Shown piece by piece: positions 3,628-12,215 of a stretch of DNA of 28,467 bases (its first letter is position 1; each line of letters starts with the position of its first letter). The translations under genes were made by a program, and so were the position numbers. The notes under the pieces are model-generated. The model saw nothing but the letters and a program-made list of their open reading frames with translations, made no database searches and was not told the DNA's origin. Where the stretch lies: the IMG/VR virus record IMGVR_UViG_3300025131_000310, positions 1 through 28,467 of that record. One strand, 5' to 3'. Source of the DNA: a virus.

Positions 3628-3653
3628 TAACTAGATACTTTCTATTAAATAAA

Positions 3654-3743
3654 TTGGTGGGGGTGGCTATCAAGGTCATTCTTAGTATATGTCAAATTAA
3701 AATTAATTTGAGTTAAAATTGTTTACCCTAGCCACCCCACCAA
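3654..3743 (-). terminator. GC-rich long inverted repeat in the intergenic gap, possible terminator or structured RNA
   Basis: On the plus strand, ttggtgggggtggcta (3654-3669) is matched by tagccaccccaccaa (3729-3743), its reverse complement apart from one extra G. The loop of 59 bases contains a second perfect hairpin, tcaaatta/taatttga with a four-base loop (3692-3711). In minus-strand RNA the outer stem is followed by tttatttaat. Such a GC-rich paired element is striking in AT-rich surroundings. It sits after the accessory operon and before the nrdJ unit, so termination, RNA processing or regulation are all possible. The loop is longer than in a classical intrinsic terminator. Confidence 0.5.
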
Positions 3744-3821
3744 ATAGATTGACATTTACTATATATATATACAACAAATATATTTAGTAATAGATATATA
3801 AAATATAGCGTAAATTGTTTA

Positions 3822-3863
3822 TTTATAACAACTTATGTTATAAATAGTACATATACTATTTAT
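3822..3863. repeat. Two overlapping perfect AT-rich palindromes
   Basis: tttataac (3822-3829) pairs with gttataaa (3837-3844), and ataaatagta (3840-3849) pairs with tactatttat (3854-3863). The arms overlap at 3840-3844, so in RNA the two hairpins exclude each other. A further self-complementary stretch, agtatatatatact, lies at 3882-3895 over the stop codon of the preceding gene. Together with the GC-rich inverted repeat these account for most of the 266-base non-coding gap at 3628-3893. They may be operators, an origin-like element or an attenuator; AT-rich sequence also produces palindromes by chance. Confidence 0.4.
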
Positions 3864-3893
3864 TATAGAAACATTATAATAAGTATATATATA

Positions 3894-4097
3894 CTAGCAA
3901 GGTTTTTTTAAATAAAAATACTTTTTTATTTGTTCTTCTGGTATATAATCAGGAACATTTTTCATACAATTATCACATATCATACAGTTTTCTACTATAT
4001 GATAATTGTTAATATCAGATGGTTTATCACATATAACACAAATACATTGTACACCATTAATTTCTTTCATTTTCCCAGTATATATTGAAGCACACAT
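3894..4097 (-). CDS. Small Cys-rich putative zinc-binding protein, last gene of the accessory operon
   Basis: The 67-aa product has CICVIC near residues 18-23 and CMICDNC near 38-44, enough cysteines for one zinc ribbon, followed by a charged and aromatic tail ending in KKPC. I prefer the ATG at 4097, which shares a base with the stop codon of the radical SAM gene (TAATG), over a TTG at 4109 that would add four residues. The same coupling occurs elsewhere in this operon. Function is unknown; it could be a chaperone or partner of the neighbouring radical SAM protein, or an independent regulator. Confidence 0.6.
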   Translation of the reverse strand: MCASIYTGKMKEINGVQCICVICDKPSDINNYHIVENCMICDNCMKNVPDYIPEEQIKKYFYLKKPC

Positions 4098-4981
4098 TAG
4101 ATATCCCAACTAGGTAATTTTATATCTTTTTTAATAATATCAACTGAACATGAACCCATTTCAAGAAAACGATTAGTTTTTAATTTAACATCACAAGGAT
4201 TACATTCACCATAATTATAACAATCTCTATAACAAATGTCTATTTTAAAATTATCATCAAAAATAGAGCTTATTGAGTGTTCATTTAAATACAAATCTCT
4301 ATGACACTTATAAATATTACCTTCAGGACCTATAATCAGTTCACTTGTTTTACATGAAACCTTTGTATCTTGTTTGCCTTTAATACTATCTGGATATTTG
4401 AAGTGTCCAAATAAATGTCTATTATAGTAACCTAAATAGTCTTTAATAAAGAAATATATCTTAGCATTTCTACATTCTTCAGCTAATTTAAGGTTATATT
4501 CAGTATTCTGTGGAAAATTAATAGAAAATATACCTACATTAAAACCAAAACTTTGTAATACAGATGCCTTTAATACTGTATCTTCAATACCCATAAATTT
4601 TGGATGGAAACTAATTCTTATTGATTTATAACCTTTTATATCATGAGAAAACATATTCTCTGGTTGTACATTCTTTATAAAATCAGTTAAATCAAAATCT
4701 AAATTAGTAAGTAAATCTATAGGGTGATTTAATTCTTTTAATAGGTTATAAAATTCTTTATATAATGTCGGCTCACCACCACCTATTGTAATAGGTATAT
4801 TTTTAGGTATATCTAGTCTATTTAAGAACTTTAACCAGTCTTTTGATGGTATTTCTGTTCTTGATTTTATTAAATTACTTGATCTACCATTAATACAGTA
4901 AGAACAATTTAACTGGCACCTTAAAGTTAAGAAAACTGGTATGTATGTTAAATTATCAGGCACAGATATTTTATGTAACAT
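4097..4981 (-). CDS. Radical SAM protein with C-terminal SPASM-like cysteines
   Basis: This 294-aa enzyme has the canonical radical SAM cluster motif CX3CX2C (Cys22, Cys26, Cys29 in RCQLNCSYC) and a GGGEPT motif (about residues 67-72) that contacts the amino group of S-adenosylmethionine. A one-electron cleavage of SAM would generate the 5'-deoxyadenosyl radical. The C-terminal third holds many cysteines (CKTSELIIGPEGNIYKCHRD, then CYRDC, YGECNPC and a final GSC), a pattern like SPASM or twitch domains that bind auxiliary iron-sulfur clusters. The substrate is unknown: SPASM enzymes modify peptides, proteins or carbohydrates. Its start lies inside the 58-aa zinc-ribbon gene and its stop overlaps the last operon gene, so it is cotranscribed with the thiamine-diphosphate enzyme and glycosyltransferase. 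Confidence 0.9.
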   Translation of the reverse strand: MLHKISVPDNLTYIPVFLTLRCQLNCSYCINGRSSNLIKSRTEIPSKDWLKFLNRLDIPKNIPITIGGGEPTLYKEFYNLLKELNHPIDLLTNLDFDLTDFIKNVQPENMFSHDIKGYKSIRISFHPKFMGIEDTVLKASVLQSFGFNVGIFSINFPQNTEYNLKLAEECRNAKIYFFIKDYLGYYNRHLFGHFKYPDSIKGKQDTKVSCKTSELIIGPEGNIYKCHRDLYLNEHSISSIFDDNFKIDICYRDCYNYGECNPCDVKLKTNRFLEMGSCSVDIIKKDIKLPSWDI

Positions 4982-5147
4982 AAAAATTTTTGCCTTCCCT
5001 TATTCTACGATCACAAGTAACACAAACTTTAACCTCAACACCTATACAAGTAGTACCTATAAATACAGGCGGTTTATCTAAAGACTCATATACTTTATCA
5101 CAAATAGAACATTTCCACGGATACCTTTTAATTTTTTTATTTTTCAT
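4971..5147 (-). CDS. 58-aa zinc-ribbon protein in an apparent gap
   Basis: An ATG at 5147 opens a 58-codon frame that overlaps the SEC-C gene by 11 bases and the radical SAM gene by 11 bases. The product is basic (MKNKKIKRYPWK) and has two CXXC knuckles, CSIC (residues 13-16) and CVTC (42-45), separated by a hydrophobic loop, plus Cys34. That is a classical small zinc ribbon, which argues strongly for a real gene despite its size. Neither function nor family is recognised. Confidence 0.68.
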   Translation of the reverse strand: MKNKKIKRYPWKCSICDKVYESLDKPPVFIGTTCIGVEVKVCVTCDRRIREGKNFYVT

Positions 5148-5391
5148 TATTAGATTTTATGTGTTCGCTATCTAACTTATTCAAATCACACATTAATTCA
5201 TTTAATCTTTCAGTTTTTTCTTCATGTTCTGGTAAACAACAATTTTTAAATTTAATACCAGAACCACAATAACACATATTATTTCTACCTGTTTTAGACT
5301 CTAAATTAACAACTTTATAAAGTAAATTAATTTGGAATACTGTTTCTTTACGAAGTTCTTGTTTATCTTTATCTATTTCATATAGACTCAT
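5137..5391 (-). CDS. SEC-C motif protein
   Basis: The 84-aa protein contains CYCGSGIKFKNCC (about residues 40-52), an excellent match to the SEC-C zinc-binding motif first known from the SecA C-terminus, where it binds SecB and ribosomes. Here it is flanked by charged helical sequence. Free-standing SEC-C proteins occur in many bacteria and phages, mostly of unknown role; a metal-dependent protein-protein contact is the likely function. Its ATG overlaps the stop of the glycosyltransferase gene as ATGA, and its end overlaps the 58-aa zinc-ribbon gene, placing it firmly in the accessory operon. Confidence 0.82.
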   Translation of the reverse strand: MSLYEIDKDKQELRKETVFQINLLYKVVNLESKTGRNNMCYCGSGIKFKNCCLPEHEEKTERLNELMCDLNKLDSEHIKSNNEK

Positions 5392-6182
5392 TTTAATACT
5401 CCCATAGTGTTAATAATACTCTCGTTACTAGGAACTTCAAAAAACAAATTTAACTTATCTTGGTTTTCTGCTAAATGCCTATCTTTCCACATAAAATTAT
5501 ATAACCATAATACACAAGTATCAATATTACCTGCATAATGTGCAACCATAAAAGGCCAAGATGCTATACCTATATAACCTTTACTGTTTAATATTAAAGG
5601 TATACAATGAAAAAATGTATCTCTATCTGTATAGGCTGATATAACGTCATCTGTACCCCAATCTATAAACTCTTCTTCGCCACCAATAACTATTGGACTA
5701 CCACCAAATTTTTTAATATCTTTAAATAGTAGTTTCCACCAATCTTCTTTAGGACTTCTAACATATTTCTCATCTTTCGACCAAGAACTACCACCTAAAG
5801 TATATGGGTATATAACTATAGGATTATGTACACCTTCTAATATATCTAAAGACCATTTAATGTCTTTATTATCATAAGGAAACTTATAATCTTTTTGAAT
5901 AGGATAAGGTAATGGTGAATCATCTTCTCTCCAATCTACAAATTTTTTATAACCTTCCCCGTATGCTGGTAATCTATTAATATAAACTTTATCTATAATA
6001 GGTGAACGTTCTAGAAGCTCTACAATCATATAAGTAACACCTATATATGTATTTAACAAATACACATCAGCTTTATCTACATTTTCTTTATTTAATAAAG
6101 ATTGTAAACGTGCTACATATGTTACACTATCTCCTAGACCACCACTAATTATTAAAGCAATTTTATTCTTATCGCCTCTCAT
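5388..6182 (-). CDS. GT9-like (heptosyltransferase-fold) glycosyltransferase
   Basis: This 264-aa protein resembles ADP-heptose:LPS heptosyltransferases (GT-B fold). The N-terminus reads ALIISGGLGDSVTYVARLQS, like the glycine-rich GD loop that opens GT9 enzymes. The second half has VIYPYTLGGSSWS, a GSPIVIGGEEE strand-turn and YIGIASWPFMVAHYAG, which aligns with the GT9 donor-binding region where a Ser/Gly-rich segment precedes AHxAxA. It is shorter than cellular heptosyltransferases (about 320-350 aa). Donor and acceptor are unknown. It starts on the stop of the thiamine-diphosphate enzyme gene (TAATG), so the two products are probably made together. Expected role: transfer of a sugar onto a glycan, virion protein or other acceptor. 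Confidence 0.72.
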   Translation of the reverse strand: MRGDKNKIALIISGGLGDSVTYVARLQSLLNKENVDKADVYLLNTYIGVTYMIVELLERSPIIDKVYINRLPAYGEGYKKFVDWREDDSPLPYPIQKDYKFPYDNKDIKWSLDILEGVHNPIVIYPYTLGGSSWSKDEKYVRSPKEDWWKLLFKDIKKFGGSPIVIGGEEEFIDWGTDDVISAYTDRDTFFHCIPLILNSKGYIGIASWPFMVAHYAGNIDTCVLWLYNFMWKDRHLAENQDKLNLFFEVPSNESIINTMGVLK

Positions 6183-7924
6183 TAATTCTCCATTATCTTT
6201 TTAATTTCATCTCTTGCTAATAAAGGTGCCATATCTTCTATTGGTTTTCCAAACACTAATTTTGGTAGTATTTGTTCACAAGGTTTTATTTTAATATTAC
6301 AAAGTATAGGTCCATCATAGTCTAAAACATAATCAATAAAACAAATTTCACTATGACCATCAATCTCTATAACACGAAAACCGTAAGCTATAGCTACTCT
6401 AACAATATCAGGAAACCCTAGACCACCACTTGAATCAGATGCAGTATATTTAGAATTTAACCAAGTATCTTGCTGGAGTTTTATCATACCATACTCGTTA
6501 TTGTTCATCACGAATATTTTTATAGGTAAAGAATTATGGATTACTGTTTCTAATTCCTGTATATTCATACTCATACCACCATCACCTGTAATACATATTA
6601 CTCTATTATTATGATTAACATATTGAGTACCTATACTGGCAGGTAGAGCATACCCCATAGGTGAATGGTTAAATGCACTAAATAATTTTTGTTTATGTCT
6701 CATTTTATATGCTTGCATAGTCCAAGTAAGAGTAGCACCAGTGTCTGTAATTATGGTATCATTATCTTTGGTTCTCTTAGAAAGTTCGTTCATAAAAACA
6801 TAAGGATTAACACTATCTTTCCTATCATAATACTCTAATAAACATATTGGGTATTTCTCTTTCCAAACTAAAATTTTATTTTTCCAATTACTTAAATCTT
6901 TAGTTTTAATTTTATACGTATTTATATTAGGTAAAAATTCTTTTAGATCACAACAAATTTTTAAATCTATTTCCACACCATTATTTTTATTCATCTCATT
7001 GTGATCTATATTTATAGATATTTTCTTAGATTTTGGTGAAAATTCTGAAGGATTGCTACCAGTTTGGTGTGTATCTAGTCTGGAACCGAAGTTTATGATT
7101 AAATCAGCGTTCTGTACTGCAAAATTACCATACCTATTAGAAGATACACCAAAACCACCTATAAGATTTGGTGTATCTTCATGAAATAAATCAACTGTAG
7201 CCCATGTAGTAACAAAAGGAATACCTGAATTTTTTAAAAACTTACACATTTCTTCTTCTGTGTGGCTAATCTTTACACCACCACCTATTATTGCAACAGG
7301 TCTTTCAGATTTAGAAATCAAACTTAACATATCATAAGTATTACTTCTTAAAAATGTAAAATCAGAAATGTCTTTTGCTATAAATGATTTTAATTCAGAA
7401 GGGTTACCTATATCAACTCTTTGTAGATCATCTGGTATATCTAATACCACAGGTCCAGGATTACCTGAATTTGCTGTATGTATTAGTTTATCTAGTTCAT
7501 ACTTAATAGAATAAGGGTCTTTTAATAAAACAGCATATTTAGTAATAGGTTCTACAATATTTACAACATCCATTTCTTGGAAACCTAATTGTCTTACTTT
7601 TCTACCATTTTTAAGATGATTAGTTGGAGGTGCTCCTACAATGTATAATACTGGTATGGAATCAAAATAAGCACAAGCAATACCTTGTATTAGGTTAACC
7701 ATACCAGGTCCACTTGTAGCAATAGCAACACCTAATTTGCCAGATACTCTGGAATAGGCTTCTGCTGCTATAGCTGCTCCTTGCTCATTTTGACAAGGTA
7801 TTTCGGTTATACTTTTATTATTAGCTATGCTGTCTAATAAACCTACAACAGTACCACCGTTACCACAAAAAACATGTTTAGTATACTCTTTTAAATATTC
7901 TGCTATATAATCAGAAACTTTCAT
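6182..7924 (-). CDS. Thiamine-diphosphate-dependent enzyme, acetolactate synthase superfamily
   Basis: At 580 aa this is a full-length member of the large acetolactate synthase/pyruvate decarboxylase superfamily with three domains: PYR (about 1-170), central (about 190-345) and PP (about 370-560). Glu47 in QNEQGAA is the conserved glutamate that activates the cofactor. GDGG (about 447-450) and NNNE about 27 residues on form the GDG-X-NN motif that binds Mg2+ and thiamine diphosphate. SGPG and RQLGFQEMDVV segments are also family-typical. Such enzymes decarboxylate 2-oxo acids and join the acyl unit to an acceptor. Biosynthetic acetolactate synthase is possible, but neither other branched-chain amino acid genes nor a regulatory subunit is present. 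Homologues in surface-polysaccharide clusters (for example YerE, which makes branched sugars) fit the neighbouring glycosyltransferase better. Confidence 0.9.
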   Translation of the reverse strand: MKVSDYIAEYLKEYTKHVFCGNGGTVVGLLDSIANNKSITEIPCQNEQGAAIAAEAYSRVSGKLGVAIATSGPGMVNLIQGIACAYFDSIPVLYIVGAPPTNHLKNGRKVRQLGFQEMDVVNIVEPITKYAVLLKDPYSIKYELDKLIHTANSGNPGPVVLDIPDDLQRVDIGNPSELKSFIAKDISDFTFLRSNTYDMLSLISKSERPVAIIGGGVKISHTEEEMCKFLKNSGIPFVTTWATVDLFHEDTPNLIGGFGVSSNRYGNFAVQNADLIINFGSRLDTHQTGSNPSEFSPKSKKISINIDHNEMNKNNGVEIDLKICCDLKEFLPNINTYKIKTKDLSNWKNKILVWKEKYPICLLEYYDRKDSVNPYVFMNELSKRTKDNDTIITDTGATLTWTMQAYKMRHKQKLFSAFNHSPMGYALPASIGTQYVNHNNRVICITGDGGMSMNIQELETVIHNSLPIKIFVMNNNEYGMIKLQQDTWLNSKYTASDSSGGLGFPDIVRVAIAYGFRVIEIDGHSEICFIDYVLDYDGPILCNIKIKPCEQILPKLVFGKPIEDMAPLLARDEIKKIMEN

Positions 7925-7926
7925 AT

Positions 7927-8142
7927 TTATTCAGTGTCATCTTGTAAAGGACATAAATTTAATATTGTTTTATCTGAAATTACATAAACTGGGATTTTTA
8001 AAGTTTCTTTCTGTTCTGAAACAGGACACCCACAAATATAATCTACAACAAAATAAACTGTAGTATCCTCTATTAATTCATTTGTTACTCTTTGTAAATA
8101 CGGACAACTAATACAACTACTGATAGATAATCTTTTATTCAT
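7927..8142 (-). CDS. Small Cys-rich protein
   Basis: The 71-aa product has CISCPYL near the N-terminus (Cys10, Cys13), CGCP in the middle (Cys37, Cys39) and NLCPL near the end (Cys64). CXXCP with a terminal CPL resembles small metal- or cluster-binding proteins common in phages. The gene lies between the first radical SAM gene and the thiamine-diphosphate enzyme with gaps of 14 and 2 bases, and a GGAGAG precedes its ATG. It could be a metal-binding accessory protein; a peptide substrate of the adjacent SPASM-type enzyme is an alternative I cannot exclude. Confidence 0.6.
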   Translation of the reverse strand: MNKRLSISSCISCPYLQRVTNELIEDTTVYFVVDYICGCPVSEQKETLKIPVYVISDKTILNLCPLQDDTE

Positions 8143-8156
8143 ATATACTCTCCATA

Positions 8157-9263
8157 CTAAACAAAATTAATTCCACTAGGTTTCTTATTTACATACCCAT
8201 CTAAAAATATATTACAAGCATCCATTCTACAGCAACCTTTACAATCTTTATTAACTTTAAAATCAGTTTTTAAATGTTCTATAATCTTCCAGTATCTTTC
8301 ACTATTTATTATTTCTTCTATAGTATTATCATGAACATTACCCATACACATATCAGGATAATTACCACCAAAGAAATAACCACAAGGGTAACATCCGCCA
8401 TCACCGCTTATTTCAAATATCAATGGTATTGCAAGACACTTATCATAAGGTTTTTCACCTTTAAGTTCCATTATATTCCATTTAGGTGTAATATCAGTAT
8501 CCTTTGTACTCATACTTTCAGCTGTTTTTAATACATTAATCACATCTTCATCATTATACCTGTTTAAATCAAACTGTGTCATACCAGTTTCACCATCATC
8601 TGGTAAACTACACTGTTTAATAACAAAATAATCTACACCTGAATTTATTGCGAACTTAGATAATGGTATTATTTCATCAAGCATATTATTTGGTGTAAAT
8701 ACCATTTGAATACCTACATCACATTTAAGATTAAATTGTTTTTTCAATCTTACTATATCTTTAACATTTTGAAATACTATATCTCTTTTATTGGAATTAT
8801 GTATCTTTTTATATGCTTCCTGAGAATAAGCACTTATATTAAAACGCATCCATTCACATGATTCTAGTACGGTTTTTTGTTTATATTCATTATCTACAAG
8901 AATACCATTAGTAGATATAGCCATACTTAAACCCTCATTTTTACCAACAGATAAAGCATTAAAACATTCTGGATTCATAGTTGGCTCACCGTCACCAATA
9001 AACCCTAACGATTTAACACCTGCTTTAGCTGAAGATTTAACAAGGTTGGTTATTAATGCGTCTTTTTCTATACTAGCACCATTTAAATCTTGAAATTTAC
9101 AAAATCCGAAGGAGCATAACATATTACAACGTTTTGTAAGACCAACATCTATGTGTATAGGTGAGATTCTTTTACTTTTATCAAAGTAATCTATTACTCT
9201 TTCCATGTGAAAAAGTAATTTTGTACTATCATGGTATCTTTTAGTATCAGTTGTAGTTTGCAT
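8157..9263 (-). CDS. Radical SAM/SPASM protein with a non-canonical CX3CX4C motif
   Basis: This 368-aa protein has the order of a radical SAM/SPASM enzyme: an N-terminal cluster motif, a GDGEPT motif (residues 90-95) and a Cys-rich end with GGCYPCGYFF and CKGCCRMDAC (Cys341, 344, 345, 350) that would hold auxiliary iron-sulfur clusters. The first motif is odd: RCNMLCSFGFCKFQ places cysteines at 46, 50 and 55, so CX3CX4C instead of CX3CX2C. Position 53, where the third cysteine belongs, is Gly, while 55 is Cys. The enzyme may use a variant cluster geometry or have lost it. It is the first gene of the accessory operon, about 84 bases downstream of the predicted transcription start. No convincing ribosome binding site precedes its ATG. 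The substrate is unknown. Confidence 0.86.
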   Translation of the reverse strand: MQTTTDTKRYHDSTKLLFHMERVIDYFDKSKRISPIHIDVGLTKRCNMLCSFGFCKFQDLNGASIEKDALITNLVKSSAKAGVKSLGFIGDGEPTMNPECFNALSVGKNEGLSMAISTNGILVDNEYKQKTVLESCEWMRFNISAYSQEAYKKIHNSNKRDIVFQNVKDIVRLKKQFNLKCDVGIQMVFTPNNMLDEIIPLSKFAINSGVDYFVIKQCSLPDDGETGMTQFDLNRYNDEDVINVLKTAESMSTKDTDITPKWNIMELKGEKPYDKCLAIPLIFEISGDGGCYPCGYFFGGNYPDMCMGNVHDNTIEEIINSERYWKIIEHLKTDFKVNKDCKGCCRMDACNIFLDGYVNKKPSGINFV

Positions 9264-9287
9264 GTTGGAATGTTTTTATGTTATGAT

Positions 9288-9410
9288 TAAAAATTTAACT
9301 TGACATATTTCTCTTGATAATGATTTTCTGAAAGAGGAATTTTGACTAAGTTTATTATAACATAAATTTAAAATTTGTCAAATATATTTGTAATAAAAAT
9401 TTGACTTGAC
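9288..9410 (-). repeat. 17-bp direct repeats flanking the promoter
   Basis: On the minus strand gtcaagtcaaattttta (9410-9394) recurs as gtcaagttaaattttta (9304-9288), 16 of 17 bases identical. One copy is just upstream of the -35 box and the other is in the leader, about 106 bases apart, roughly ten helical turns. Paired operator sites for a repressor or activator are a reasonable reading. AT-rich sequence makes chance similarity possible, and no regulator gene is visible in this window. Confidence 0.42.
9354..9381 (-). promoter_or_regulatory. Near-consensus sigma70-type promoter for the accessory operon
   Basis: The minus strand carries TTGACA (9381-9376), a 16-base spacer and TATAAT (9359-9354), both hexamers perfect. 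Transcription would start near 9347, leaving an 84-base leader before the radical SAM start codon. Immediately upstream lies the stop of the last collar-fibre gene and a weak stem (gactt/aagtc) followed by aaattttta, which might separate the two units. A perfect host-type promoter here implies that the accessory operon can be expressed independently of the late tail genes. Confidence 0.78.
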
Positions 9411-9413
9411 ACT

Positions 9414-10343
9414 TTAAGTCCTTATTATATAACTAAAAGCAGTACTAGGTTGCATATTATTATGAGTACTACCGCTACCTGTACTACTTGATGTAGCAGT
9501 AGTAGTATATATAGGAGAACCTCCAGATAAACCTCCACCACATGCAGTACCTGATCTATAACCATAAGTATGAGTATGTGCAGGTATTTCAGCTGTTGAT
9601 AGAGTGTGGTTCACTGTACCTGAAACACCTCCTAAACTATCCGCATTTGCACTTGTAACCCTATTTGCACTACTACCACCCATATTATCTAAACCTATAA
9701 CAGTTCTACCTCTTAAATCAGGTATAGTAAAATTACCGCTACTACCACCATAAGTATAGCCTATTACTGAAAATAGGTCTACATATGTTGAAGCAGCTAC
9801 TGATTGACCTGCACAAAGTAACCAACCACCAGGTGCTGTAGTACCAGCAAATAATATAATTCCACCTGAAGGACTAGTTGAACCTGTACCAGAAGAACCT
9901 GAAGCTTCTACCCAAGGTTTTACCAATATTTCATTAGTTCCAATAGCAAAGCCAACTAAAACAGCATTACCGTCAGGTTTATTTGTTGTTATTTCACCTT
10001 CTGTACTTGTTGATAAATAATAAGGTGCACTAACAGACAAAGACCAATTAGGATCAGATATCCAACCTGTATGTTGAGCATAACCGTCTTCACCACTCTG
10101 AAAAGCTGACCTAGTAAAACCTATAAATCTTGAAGAAGGATCACCTGTAGTACCAGCAATAGCTAACTTTATAGTATTATTTGTAGTACGATATACAACT
10201 TTATAAGCACCTAATGCTTCACCTGCTTGAGTCTTAATTGTAGGACCTTTACCTATCTGGTCGAAGTTATCATTAATAGGTGTTTCCCATTTATCAACTC
10301 CTTGTGCTACTGTCTCTAAACTATGATGTTTTGTAAAACTCAT
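9414..10343 (-). CDS. Tail-collar fibre protein, copy C
   Basis: One of three adjacent 306-309-aa paralogues. The N-terminus (about 1-150) carries a shared sequence with WETPINDNFDQI and SDPNWSLSVSAPYYLS, probably the tail-attachment part. A Ser/Gly linker near 150-165 leads into a phage tail-collar domain (about 165-230) with GGWLLCAGQSV, GYTYGGSSGNF and PDLRGRTVIGLDNMGG. The end has AEIPAHTHTY, a variable Gly/Ser-rich loop and THNNMQPSTAFSYIIRT. Collar-domain proteins form trimeric short fibres or tips that contact the host surface. The ATG is preceded by an AGAGGAAATAA ribosome binding site almost identical in all three copies. Among the three, this one is closest to the middle copy. It is the last tail gene of the late run. 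Confidence 0.88.
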   Translation of the reverse strand: MSFTKHHSLETVAQGVDKWETPINDNFDQIGKGPTIKTQAGEALGAYKVVYRTTNNTIKLAIAGTTGDPSSRFIGFTRSAFQSGEDGYAQHTGWISDPNWSLSVSAPYYLSTSTEGEITTNKPDGNAVLVGFAIGTNEILVKPWVEASGSSGTGSTSPSGGIILFAGTTAPGGWLLCAGQSVAASTYVDLFSVIGYTYGGSSGNFTIPDLRGRTVIGLDNMGGSSANRVTSANADSLGGVSGTVNHTLSTAEIPAHTHTYGYRSGTACGGGLSGGSPIYTTTATSSSTGSGSTHNNMQPSTAFSYIIRT

Positions 10344-10354
10344 TTATTTCCTCT

Positions 10355-11284
10355 TTATGTTTTAATGATATAAGACATTGCCATATAAGGTTGCATATTA
10401 TTATGCGTATTACCGCTACCTACAGAACTTGATGTACCAGTATTCTGAGTTTGTGGTGCACCACCTAAATTTCCAGCACCAACTGGGCTGCCCCATTGAT
10501 TAGTATAAGTATGAGTATGTGCTGGCATTTCACTTGTAGTAAGTGTATGATTTTCAGTACCACCAGAACCACCTAAAGAGTCAGCAGCAGATGTAGTAAC
10601 TACATTAGCACTACTACCACCCATATTATCTAAACCTATAGCACATCTACCTCTCATATCAGGCACATTAAAATTAGCTCCACTACCACCATAAGTATAT
10701 CCTATTGATGAAAAAAGACCAGAATATGTTGAAGTGGCTACTGATTGACCTGCACAAAGTAACCAACCTGTAGGTGCAGTAGAACCAGCAAATATAATAA
10801 CAGTACCTGTTGAACTACTACCACTACCTCCCCCACTTTGACCTGAAGCTTCTATCCAAGGCTTAATTAGTATTTCATTAGTAGATATAGAATAACCAAC
10901 TAAAATAGCATCACCATCAGGTTTACTTGATGTTATTTCACCTGCTGTACTTGTTGATAAATAATAAGGTGCACTAACAGATAAAGACCAATTAGGGTCA
11001 GATATCCAACCTGTATGTTGAGCATAACCTGTAGCCCCATTTGCAAATGGTTCCCTAGTAAAACCTATAAATCTTGAAGAAGGGTCACCTGTAGTACCAG
11101 CAATAGCTTTTACAATTTCGTTATTTATTGTACGATATACAACTTTATAAGAACTTAATGTTTCACCTGCAGTTGCTTTTATTGTAGGACCTTTATCTAT
11201 CTCTACAAAATTTGCATTGAGAGGAATATCCCAGTTATCTACACCTTGTACTACTGTCTGTAAATTATGATGTTTTGTAGCCAT
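10355..11284 (-). CDS. Tail-collar fibre protein, copy B
   Basis: This 309-aa paralogue has the same plan: attachment region with WDIPLNANFVEI, a Gly/Ser linker at about 148-160, then the collar domain with TGWLLCAGQSV, GYTYGGSGANF and PDMRGRCAIGLDNMGG, and a C-terminus with SEMPAHTHTY and NTHNNMQPYMAMSYIIKT. Large blocks are nearly identical to copy C at the DNA level (for example the segment encoding SDPNWSLSVSAPYYLS), pointing to fairly recent duplication or gene conversion. The segment between the HTHTY and HNNMQP motifs differs most (NQWGSPVGAGNLGG), as expected of a receptor-contact loop. It likely forms homo- or heterotrimers with the neighbouring copies. Confidence 0.88.
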   Translation of the reverse strand: MATKHHNLQTVVQGVDNWDIPLNANFVEIDKGPTIKATAGETLSSYKVVYRTINNEIVKAIAGTTGDPSSRFIGFTREPFANGATGYAQHTGWISDPNWSLSVSAPYYLSTSTAGEITSSKPDGDAILVGYSISTNEILIKPWIEASGQSGGGSGSSSTGTVIIFAGSTAPTGWLLCAGQSVATSTYSGLFSSIGYTYGGSGANFNVPDMRGRCAIGLDNMGGSSANVVTTSAADSLGGSGGTENHTLTTSEMPAHTHTYTNQWGSPVGAGNLGGAPQTQNTGTSSSVGSGNTHNNMQPYMAMSYIIKT

Positions 11285-11294
11285 TTATTTCCTT

Positions 11295-12215
11295 TTAATA
11301 TTTAATCATCCAATTAAGTGCAAGCCAAGGTTGCATATTATTATGAGCACTACTACTACCTACAGTGGACATATCTCTTGTATCATAAGCTGAGTCTGCA
11401 CCACCACTAGCCCCAGCACCATTTCCATGCCCATAATTCTGTGTGTAAGTATGAGTATGTGCAGGTATTTCAGATTCTGACAGTGTGTGATTCTCTGTAC
11501 CAATAGTATAATTTAAACTAGTAGCACCTGATACTCTACCAGCAGATGACCCACCCATATTATCTAAACCTATAGATGTATACCCTCTCATATCTGGAAG
11601 ATTAAAATTAGCCCCACTACCACCATAAGTATATCCTATTACATTAAATAAATCAATATAAGTAGCTTTATCTTTTGACTGACCATAACACATAAACCAA
11701 TTTGATGGTACTGTAGCTGAACTAAACATCCTCATAGAACCTATAGGTCCTGGAGATTCTTCACTACTTACCCCATCAAGTTCTACCCAAGGCTTAATTA
11801 GTATTTCATTAGTTCCAATAGCAAAGCCTACCAATGTAGAACCAGAAGGTTTACTTGTTGATATCTCTCCAGGTGTTATTGCTGATAAATAGTAAGGGTC
11901 ACTAACACTCAAACTCCAATCAACATCCTTAATCCACCCAGCATGTTGAGCATACGCATTTTCATTTAAATCATAAGATTCTCTAGTAAACCCAACAAAC
12001 CTAGAACTAATATCACCTGTAGTACCAGCAATTGCATGATGTAATTTACCATCTGACTCTAAATATACAACCTTAAAACGTGATAATGTTTCACCAGCAA
12101 TCCCAAAAACAGTAGGACCTCTATCAACAGCATCAAAGTTCTCATTAATAGGCGCATCCCAATTATCAACTCCTTTTTCTACTAACTCTAAATTAGAATG
12201 TTTTGTAAAACTCAT
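11295..12215 (-). CDS. Tail-collar fibre protein, copy A
   Basis: The most divergent of the three copies, 306 aa, and the first in transcription order, directly after the J-like gene. It keeps WDAPINENFDAV and SRFVGFTRESY in the attachment region and the collar signature GYTYGGSGANF plus PDMRGYTSIGLDNMGG. It replaces the LLCAGQSV segment with FMCYGQSK and has an acidic linker (DGVSSEESPGP) in place of the Gly/Ser linker. The C-terminal loop between HTHTY and HNNMQP is YGHGNGAGASGG-rich. Position next to the tail-tip protein suggests it could be the ancestral fibre attached to the tip. Whether the three proteins assemble together or act as alternatives cannot be told from sequence. Confidence 0.87.
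   Translation of the reverse strand: MSFTKHSNLELVEKGVDNWDAPINENFDAVDRGPTVFGIAGETLSRFKVVYLESDGKLHHAIAGTTGDISSRFVGFTRESYDLNENAYAQHAGWIKDVDWSLSVSDPYYLSAITPGEISTSKPSGSTLVGFAIGTNEILIKPWVELDGVSSEESPGPIGSMRMFSSATVPSNWFMCYGQSKDKATYIDLFNVIGYTYGGSGANFNLPDMRGYTSIGLDNMGGSSAGRVSGATSLNYTIGTENHTLSESEIPAHTHTYTQNYGHGNGAGASGGADSAYDTRDMSTVGSSSAHNNMQPWLALNWMIKY

Follow-up and report, generated by a model that had tools for sequence, protein, structure and literature searches.

A phage operon with a conserved core of two radical SAM proteins and a probably YerE-like thiamine diphosphate enzyme, possibly a route to branched sugars

The viral record IMGVR_UViG_3300025131_000310 (28,467 bases, taken over its full length and hereafter called the window) carries on its minus strand an operon of eight tightly packed genes spanning positions 9263-3894. 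Its conserved core is made up of two radical S-adenosylmethionine (SAM) proteins, rSAM1 (a radical SAM/SPASM protein of 368 aa, 8157-9263) and rSAM2 (294 aa, 4097-4981), and of a thiamine diphosphate (ThDP)-dependent enzyme belonging to the YerE-like decarboxylase superfamily (580 aa, 6182-7924). These three genes co-occur in distant phages and in cells, and are not the rarely associated genes that an initial annotation, made from the DNA sequence, had named as the outcome that would speak against its reading. We favor the view that the core is a small pathway, shared with cells, whose product is a sugar or polyol building block of an unusual and probably carbon-branched kind. We hold only tentatively a more specific proposal, namely that an undescribed module composed of an rSAM pair and a ThDP branching enzyme, in which three ThDP classes are interchangeable, yields a new class of carbon-branched sugars installed on virions or on hosts.

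The extent of the core is apparent from the relatives of the operon. Single-sequence scans of viral contigs returned near-identical copies and more divergent relatives: L009 (82-90%), L010/L012 (60-71%, with a cut-off second contig, L135), and the distant L011, a contig of 194 kb (40-49%). The whole eight-gene set is carried by L009. L012 retains the genes for rSAM1, the ThDP enzyme, the putative glycosyltransferase, the SEC-C protein and rSAM2, to which aminotransferase, methyltransferase and HNH-like genes are added, and L011 retains only the three core genes (rSAM1, ThDP, rSAM2), which are immediately preceded by a PanB-family gene and have a methyltransferase gene among them. The initial annotation had put forward the eight-gene combination: the rSAM1-ThDP-rSAM2 part is widely conserved, whereas the eight genes do not form a single conserved unit. 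Profile scans extended the rSAM family to dozens of viral contigs, to DPANN archaea, and to metagenome-assembled genomes of one member of the Omnitrophota and one of the Deltaproteobacteria. Several of the viral contigs are true phages, since terminase and portal genes lie a few genes away from the cassette in them. The phage cassette is known from metagenomic contigs only; among 50,697 phage records no match to rSAM2 was present, rSAM1 had remote homologues only, and the ThDP matches were all less than 60% identical and largely host-contig-like.

A ThDP enzyme is encoded nearby in 34 of 41 nonredundant loci chosen by the presence of rSAM1 or rSAM2, against 1 of 69 control loci taken from the surroundings of other phage radical SAM genes (Fisher p 2.5e-20); many of the controls fall short of the family loci in length, which somewhat inflates the contrast and does not plausibly explain 83% versus 1%, and the loci share descent to varying degrees, so that neither this p-value nor those given below come from independent events. 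Where both rSAMs were called, the core genes all lie on the same strand in 24 of 25 loci. The ThDP partner is a single-chain enzyme of the YerE/acetolactate synthase (AHAS) decarboxylase type in 8 loci and a split pair in 26, never both (p 7e-5); by motif inspection, 25 clustered large subunits of the split pairs comprise about 18 of E1 type and about 7 of true transketolase type. A class I/II aminotransferase gene is present in five of the eight decarboxylase-type loci and in none of the 26 split-type loci (p 2e-4). Three ThDP classes are known or proposed to branch ketosugars, the YerE-like decarboxylases, the alpha-keto acid dehydrogenases 2 (alpha-KADH2; pairs of E1 type) and the split transketolases (PMC12247030, a 2025 review). 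The enzymes that take turns next to rSAM1 and rSAM2 correspond to these three classes, and a branched sugar is therefore the product that we propose. Such an interchange around one rSAM pair is comparative functional evidence that lies beyond the reach of any single genome.

The ThDP protein of the window had been described as a full-length enzyme of the acetolactate synthase superfamily, and all three TPP-enzyme domains are indeed present in its 580 aa (117, 113 and 110 bits in Pfam). The hallmarks of the decarboxylase superfamily are all found, namely its three domains (PYR, middle and PP), a glutamate for catalysis and a GDG or CDG motif; Glu47 and GDG at residues 447-449 are retained in an alignment with JanthE and the E. 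coli enzymes. A profile of the enzyme ranked the PDB entry 8rph first (395 bits), ahead of 5ahk (373 bits) and of E. coli acetolactate synthase I (343 bits). The first of these is JanthE, described as a YerE-like enzyme that catalyses the coupling of ketones with 2-oxo acids (PMC12188165). A small tree places the phage enzymes, together with a homologue from Pacearchaeota, beside JanthE (support 0.99) and apart from IlvB, IlvI, Gcl and PoxB, and the window enzyme is about 31% identical to JanthE and 27-28% identical to IlvI/IlvB. The placement inside housekeeping acetolactate synthases that the annotation had regarded as contrary to its reading was not seen in this tree, where JanthE stands for the YerE-like enzymes and the window enzyme groups with it and not with E. 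coli IlvB or IlvI. The best NCBIfam match is the model of the acetolactate synthase large subunit, TIGR00118, at 364.6 bits, below its cutoff of 538.35; an assignment as a biosynthetic AHAS large subunit was rejected on this score and on the separate clade in the tree.

The surroundings of the homologues are rich in sugar genes. A wider scan with the ThDP profile gave 57 viral contigs, reduced to 36 nonredundant viral loci, among which epimerases are present in 22, B12-radical SAM proteins in 18 and DegT aminotransferases in 15. In 13 of the 36, a PanB gene (PF02548, 328 bits) lies immediately upstream of the ThDP gene. PanB hydroxymethylates 2-oxo acids and could for this reason provide the ThDP enzyme with a hydroxylated donor; its product could be a 4-hydroxy-2-oxo acid, the type preferred by the YerE-like enzyme ErwE (PMC12247030). 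A recurrent order B12-radical SAM - PanB - ThDP was observed in the phage contigs L154-L196 (for example L157, 5539-9830), some of them longer than 100 kb, which also hold genes for DegT, epimerases, a dTDP-sugar isomerase and a PfkB or GHMP kinase and apparently represent nucleotide-sugar clusters of their own.

Cellular homologues sit among genes for GT1, GT2 and GT9 glycosyltransferases, epimerases, DegT and C-methyltransferases. rSAM2 is present in 31 of 285 Omnitrophota genomes, and 19 cellular rSAM2 regions (18 from Omnitrophota and one archaeal) include a ThDP enzyme in 12 cases and a GT9 in 10, the recurring order being GT9 - rSAM1 - E1 pair - rSAM1 - rSAM2. A fuller arrangement, GT9 - rSAM1 - E1alpha - E1beta - GT2 - rSAM1 - rSAM2, close to genes for TPR or large membrane proteins, was seen in L222-L240, mostly Omnitrophota, and looks like an unstudied surface-glycan locus. 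The earlier suggestion that the phage makes or remodels a glycan thus draws support from the genomic surroundings in phages, Omnitrophota and DPANN archaea. The GT9 assignment that accompanied it was not confirmed.

Both rSAM1 and rSAM2 harbor the radical SAM domain PF04055 (36.1 and 30.8 bits, respectively; cutoff 29.5). They had been annotated as two radical SAM/SPASM-like proteins, a description that in Pfam applies fully to rSAM1 (SPASM domain PF13186, 35.2 bits) and only in its radical SAM part to rSAM2, for which no SPASM match was obtained. The auxiliary-cluster cysteines C276, C294, C341 and C345 are conserved in rSAM1. In rSAM2, the canonical CX3CX2C motif and further cysteines (210, 226, 254, 260 and 263, with 278 also in close relatives) are conserved in 33 of 33 family members. 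The third cluster cysteine is canonical in 33 of 35 members of the rSAM1 family, the exceptions being the window and L009 (gene at 8973-10079), which both show CX3CX4C (CNMLCSFGFC) with Gly53 and Cys55. Despite this displaced cysteine the rSAM1 of the window is probably functional, because it is the most strongly constrained of the genes compared with L009 (ratio of nonsynonymous to synonymous substitution rates, dN/dS, 0.11). The enzyme genes of the cassette are under purifying selection in the same comparison. In L109/L110 (6945-8978), an rSAM1 of 677 aa carries an apparent intein-like insertion within the CX3CX2C motif. The AlphaFold2 (AF2) model of rSAM2 is of high confidence (predicted local distance difference test, pLDDT, 92), and its nearest folds are the peptide-acting SuiB, SkfB and anSME and, more weakly, BlsE, SpeY and DesII, which act on sugars or cyclitols; SPASM enzymes that act on peptides and those that act on sugars are not told apart by the fold comparison, and profile searches gave the same blend of matches.

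The remaining five genes are less widespread, the glycosyltransferase-like, SEC-C and small Cys-rich genes having been seen only in close siphophage relatives. The putative transferase of 264 aa (5388-6182) is conserved in L009 (83%) and L012 (60%). It has no match in Pfam, PHROGs or NCBIfam and no credible match in the PDB; a GT9 profile built for the purpose scored below zero on it, a profile-profile comparison also gave nothing, and a deeper viral scan returned close copies only. Its AF2 model (pLDDT 47) is too poor for fold comparison. The gene that had been called a GT9-like transferase is thus present, while that label, a GT9/GT-B resemblance by eye only, was not borne out by Pfam, PDB or the profile tests. 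The SEC-C motif protein (84 aa, 5137-5391), also conserved in L009 and L012, was correctly recognised (PF02810, 31.1 bits, cutoff 20.4), as were the three small Cys-rich proteins. The first of these (71 aa, 7927-8142) has a homologue only in L009 and in near-identical copies, with a dN/dS of 0.70, and the second (58 aa, 4971-5147) has an open reading frame (ORF) of similar size at the same spot in L009. The last (71 aa, zinc-ribbon-like, TTG start, 3894-4109) has a homologue in L009 and, on visual inspection, is related to small ORFs of L010. Across the loci compared, no small gene accompanies the rSAM pair. HNH-endonuclease-like genes are found in L010 before rSAM1 (1311-1799) and between the ThDP and glycosyltransferase-like genes (5832-6530), which suggests mobility of the cassette.

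The operon is real, and its layout agrees with the initial annotation: all eight genes and their ATGA, TAATG and short-overlap junctions are present. Gaps of 2-14 nt separate the first three genes (rSAM1, the 71-aa Cys-rich protein, ThDP), the ThDP gene overlaps the transferase gene by 1 nt (TAATG), the latter overlaps the SEC-C gene by 4 nt (ATGA), and the last three junctions overlap by 11, 11 and 13 nt. The location between tail fibres and nrdJ also holds, with three tail collar-fibre paralogues on one side and the adenosylcobalamin-dependent ribonucleotide reductase gene nrdJ on the other. The phage has a lambda-like siphovirus tail, and the nearest relatives of its nrdJ include alphaproteobacterial phages, which hints at a host among the Alphaproteobacteria. 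The collar-fibre paralogues lie in tandem directly upstream of the operon (9414-12215, about 306-309 aa each) and are possible targets or recognition variants. In other phage contigs, a Cpn60/TCP1 chaperonin gene adjoins the cassette near the terminase (L092, 4070-5494; also L093 and L094).

Located behind the tail-fibre genes, the cassette has a strong promoter of its own. This extended -10, sigma70-type site (TTGACA-16-TATAAT, with TG ahead of the -10) lies on the minus strand at 9381-9354 and precedes the start of rSAM1 by about 90 nt. It had been described as a perfect promoter, and the 12/12 match is the single one of its kind in 9.5 kb, whereas promoter-like sites overall show no enrichment over shuffles (54 versus 62). 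The relative L009 keeps both hexamers and the TG, with a 17-nt spacer, while the remainder of the leader has diverged and shortened. At the other end, the structured noncoding stretch noted earlier corresponds to 266 nt of AT-rich DNA after the last gene (3628-3893), which outfolds 200 of 200 shuffles (z -4.55) and contains a long GC-rich inverted repeat (arms 3648-3669 and 3729-3750) that gives a stable hairpin. This stretch has no match in Rfam and may be the transcript end.

A possible sequence of reactions can be proposed for the core. One or both rSAMs would modify a sugar precursor, for example by deoxygenating it or by oxidising one of its hydroxyls to a ketone, the formation of a ketone acceptor being suggested by analogy with BtrN and SpeY. 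The ThDP enzyme would then decarboxylate a 2-oxo acid and add the acyl anion to the ketone of the precursor, giving a tertiary-alcohol branch; we infer this step because of the YerE-like kinship of the enzyme and because other classes of ThDP branching enzymes stand in for it elsewhere. The donor could be host pyruvate or another 2-oxo acid in the window, while in relatives the aminotransferase or the PanB hydroxymethyltransferase encoded beside the ThDP gene may supply it. Finally, the product would be attached by a transferase, which may be the 264-aa protein, either to the host surface or to a protein of the virion, for instance the neighbouring tail fibres.

Several observations weigh against a branched-sugar pathway. 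In the Pfam, PHROGs and NCBIfam searches and the GT9 profile tests, the window cassette yielded neither an epimerase nor a dehydratase for nucleotide sugars, nor a glycosyltransferase that could be confirmed. The rSAMs are equally near, in sequence and fold, to peptide enzymes (SuiB, SkfB, anSME) and to sugar enzymes (BlsE, DesII, BtrN, SpeY), the rSAM1 of the window lacks the canonical third cluster cysteine, and the ThDP tree represents the YerE-like enzymes by JanthE and not by YerE or ErwE. The missing nucleotide-sugar genes would suit a cassette making a non-sugar small molecule, such as an acyloin, an amino-polyol, a lipid head group or a cofactor-like compound, with incidental sugar neighbours, and ThDP carboligases and radical SAM enzymes are common in secondary-metabolite routes. 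We consider this unlikely, as the relatives are repeatedly found among epimerase, DegT, GT2, GT9, dTDP-sugar isomerase and C-methyltransferase genes. The proximity of rSAM2 to SuiB, SkfB and anSME, together with the three small Cys-rich genes of the operon, would be expected if the radical SAM/SPASM pair matured a peptide, perhaps one of these small products, or modified a virion protein. This has a low probability in our view: the first small Cys-rich gene evolves fast, we know of no role for a conserved ThDP enzyme in peptide maturation, and the small genes were rejected as precursors of ribosomally synthesized and post-translationally modified peptides since none of them tracks the rSAM pair across loci.

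It is very improbable that the genes are unrelated cargo (morons) brought together by chance in one phage lineage. The lineage-specific distribution of the glycosyltransferase-like, SEC-C and small genes and the HNH-like genes flanking the cassette in L010/L012 are in line with such an origin, but for the core it is contradicted by the co-occurrence of the genes in distant phages and in cells, where they almost invariably share a strand, and it stands just for the small genes. The NCBIfam top match (365 bits) could be taken to indicate auxiliary metabolism, in which the enzyme would act as an acetolactate synthase and raise the supply of branched-chain amino acids in the course of infection. 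This reading has hardly any credibility, given the score far under the cutoff of 538, the 27-28% identity to IlvI/IlvB in a separate clade, an operon devoid of a regulatory subunit or any other ilv gene, and the replacement of the enzyme elsewhere by E1/transketolase pairs, which are not acetolactate synthases; a role in the synthesis of branched-chain amino acids was rejected on score, tree and absent ilv partners. Radical SAM enzymes and transferases take part in the DNA modification of phages, and the transferase might accordingly act on phage DNA in a hypermodification pathway, yet we give this equally little weight, as no known DNA-modification gene was found in the cassette with Pfam, PHROGs or NCBIfam and the cellular homologues lie in glycan clusters.

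The combination had been presented as not described in phages, in agreement with the searched literature (with most subscription journals outside it), where we found no description of an rSAM pair in phages whose ThDP branching enzymes are interchangeable, of phage PanB-ThDP clusters or of branched sugars in phages. If the branched-sugar proposal is true, phages own a carbon-branched-sugar chemistry that has until now been reported from bacterial polysaccharides and from antibiotics, and some of the radical SAM genes carried by environmental phages are accounted for. The loci would also be a new source of ThDP carboligases and provide a defined gene set for testing virion decoration against host-surface rewriting.

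Among known systems, the host-recognition clusters of pelagimyophages, cassettes of glycosyltransferase and radical SAM genes proposed to alter the host O-chain (PMC7029224), share with the window glycan-type and radical SAM genes adjoining tail-fibre genes. They belong to myoviruses, in contrast to the siphovirus tail of the window, and no ThDP enzyme or rSAM1/rSAM2 pair is named in the available part of that report. BtrN, SpeY, DesII and BlsE, SPASM/twitch enzymes acting on sugars or cyclitols, resemble the rSAMs in fold and in the layout of auxiliary-cluster-type cysteines; the sequence and fold matches are weak, the likeness is at the superfamily level only, and peptide-acting SPASM enzymes match equally or better. 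The alpha-KADH2 and split-transketolase enzymes of the branched-sugar antibiotics aldgamycin and kibdelomycin, and those proposed for miharamycin, are related to the two-gene types that replace the YerE-like enzyme in 26 loci, although in phages the two proteins are small (about 204 + 170 aa) and were not seen to contain a transketolase C domain, and the window does not have this type. Compared with the YerE-like lyases YerE, ErwE and JanthE, which come from O-antigen and other polysaccharide clusters, the window enzyme is phage-encoded, paired with two radical SAM enzymes in a cassette that has no nucleotide-sugar dehydratase, and known from its sequence only; it shares with them the superfamily, the three-domain layout, the catalytic Glu and the GDG motif.

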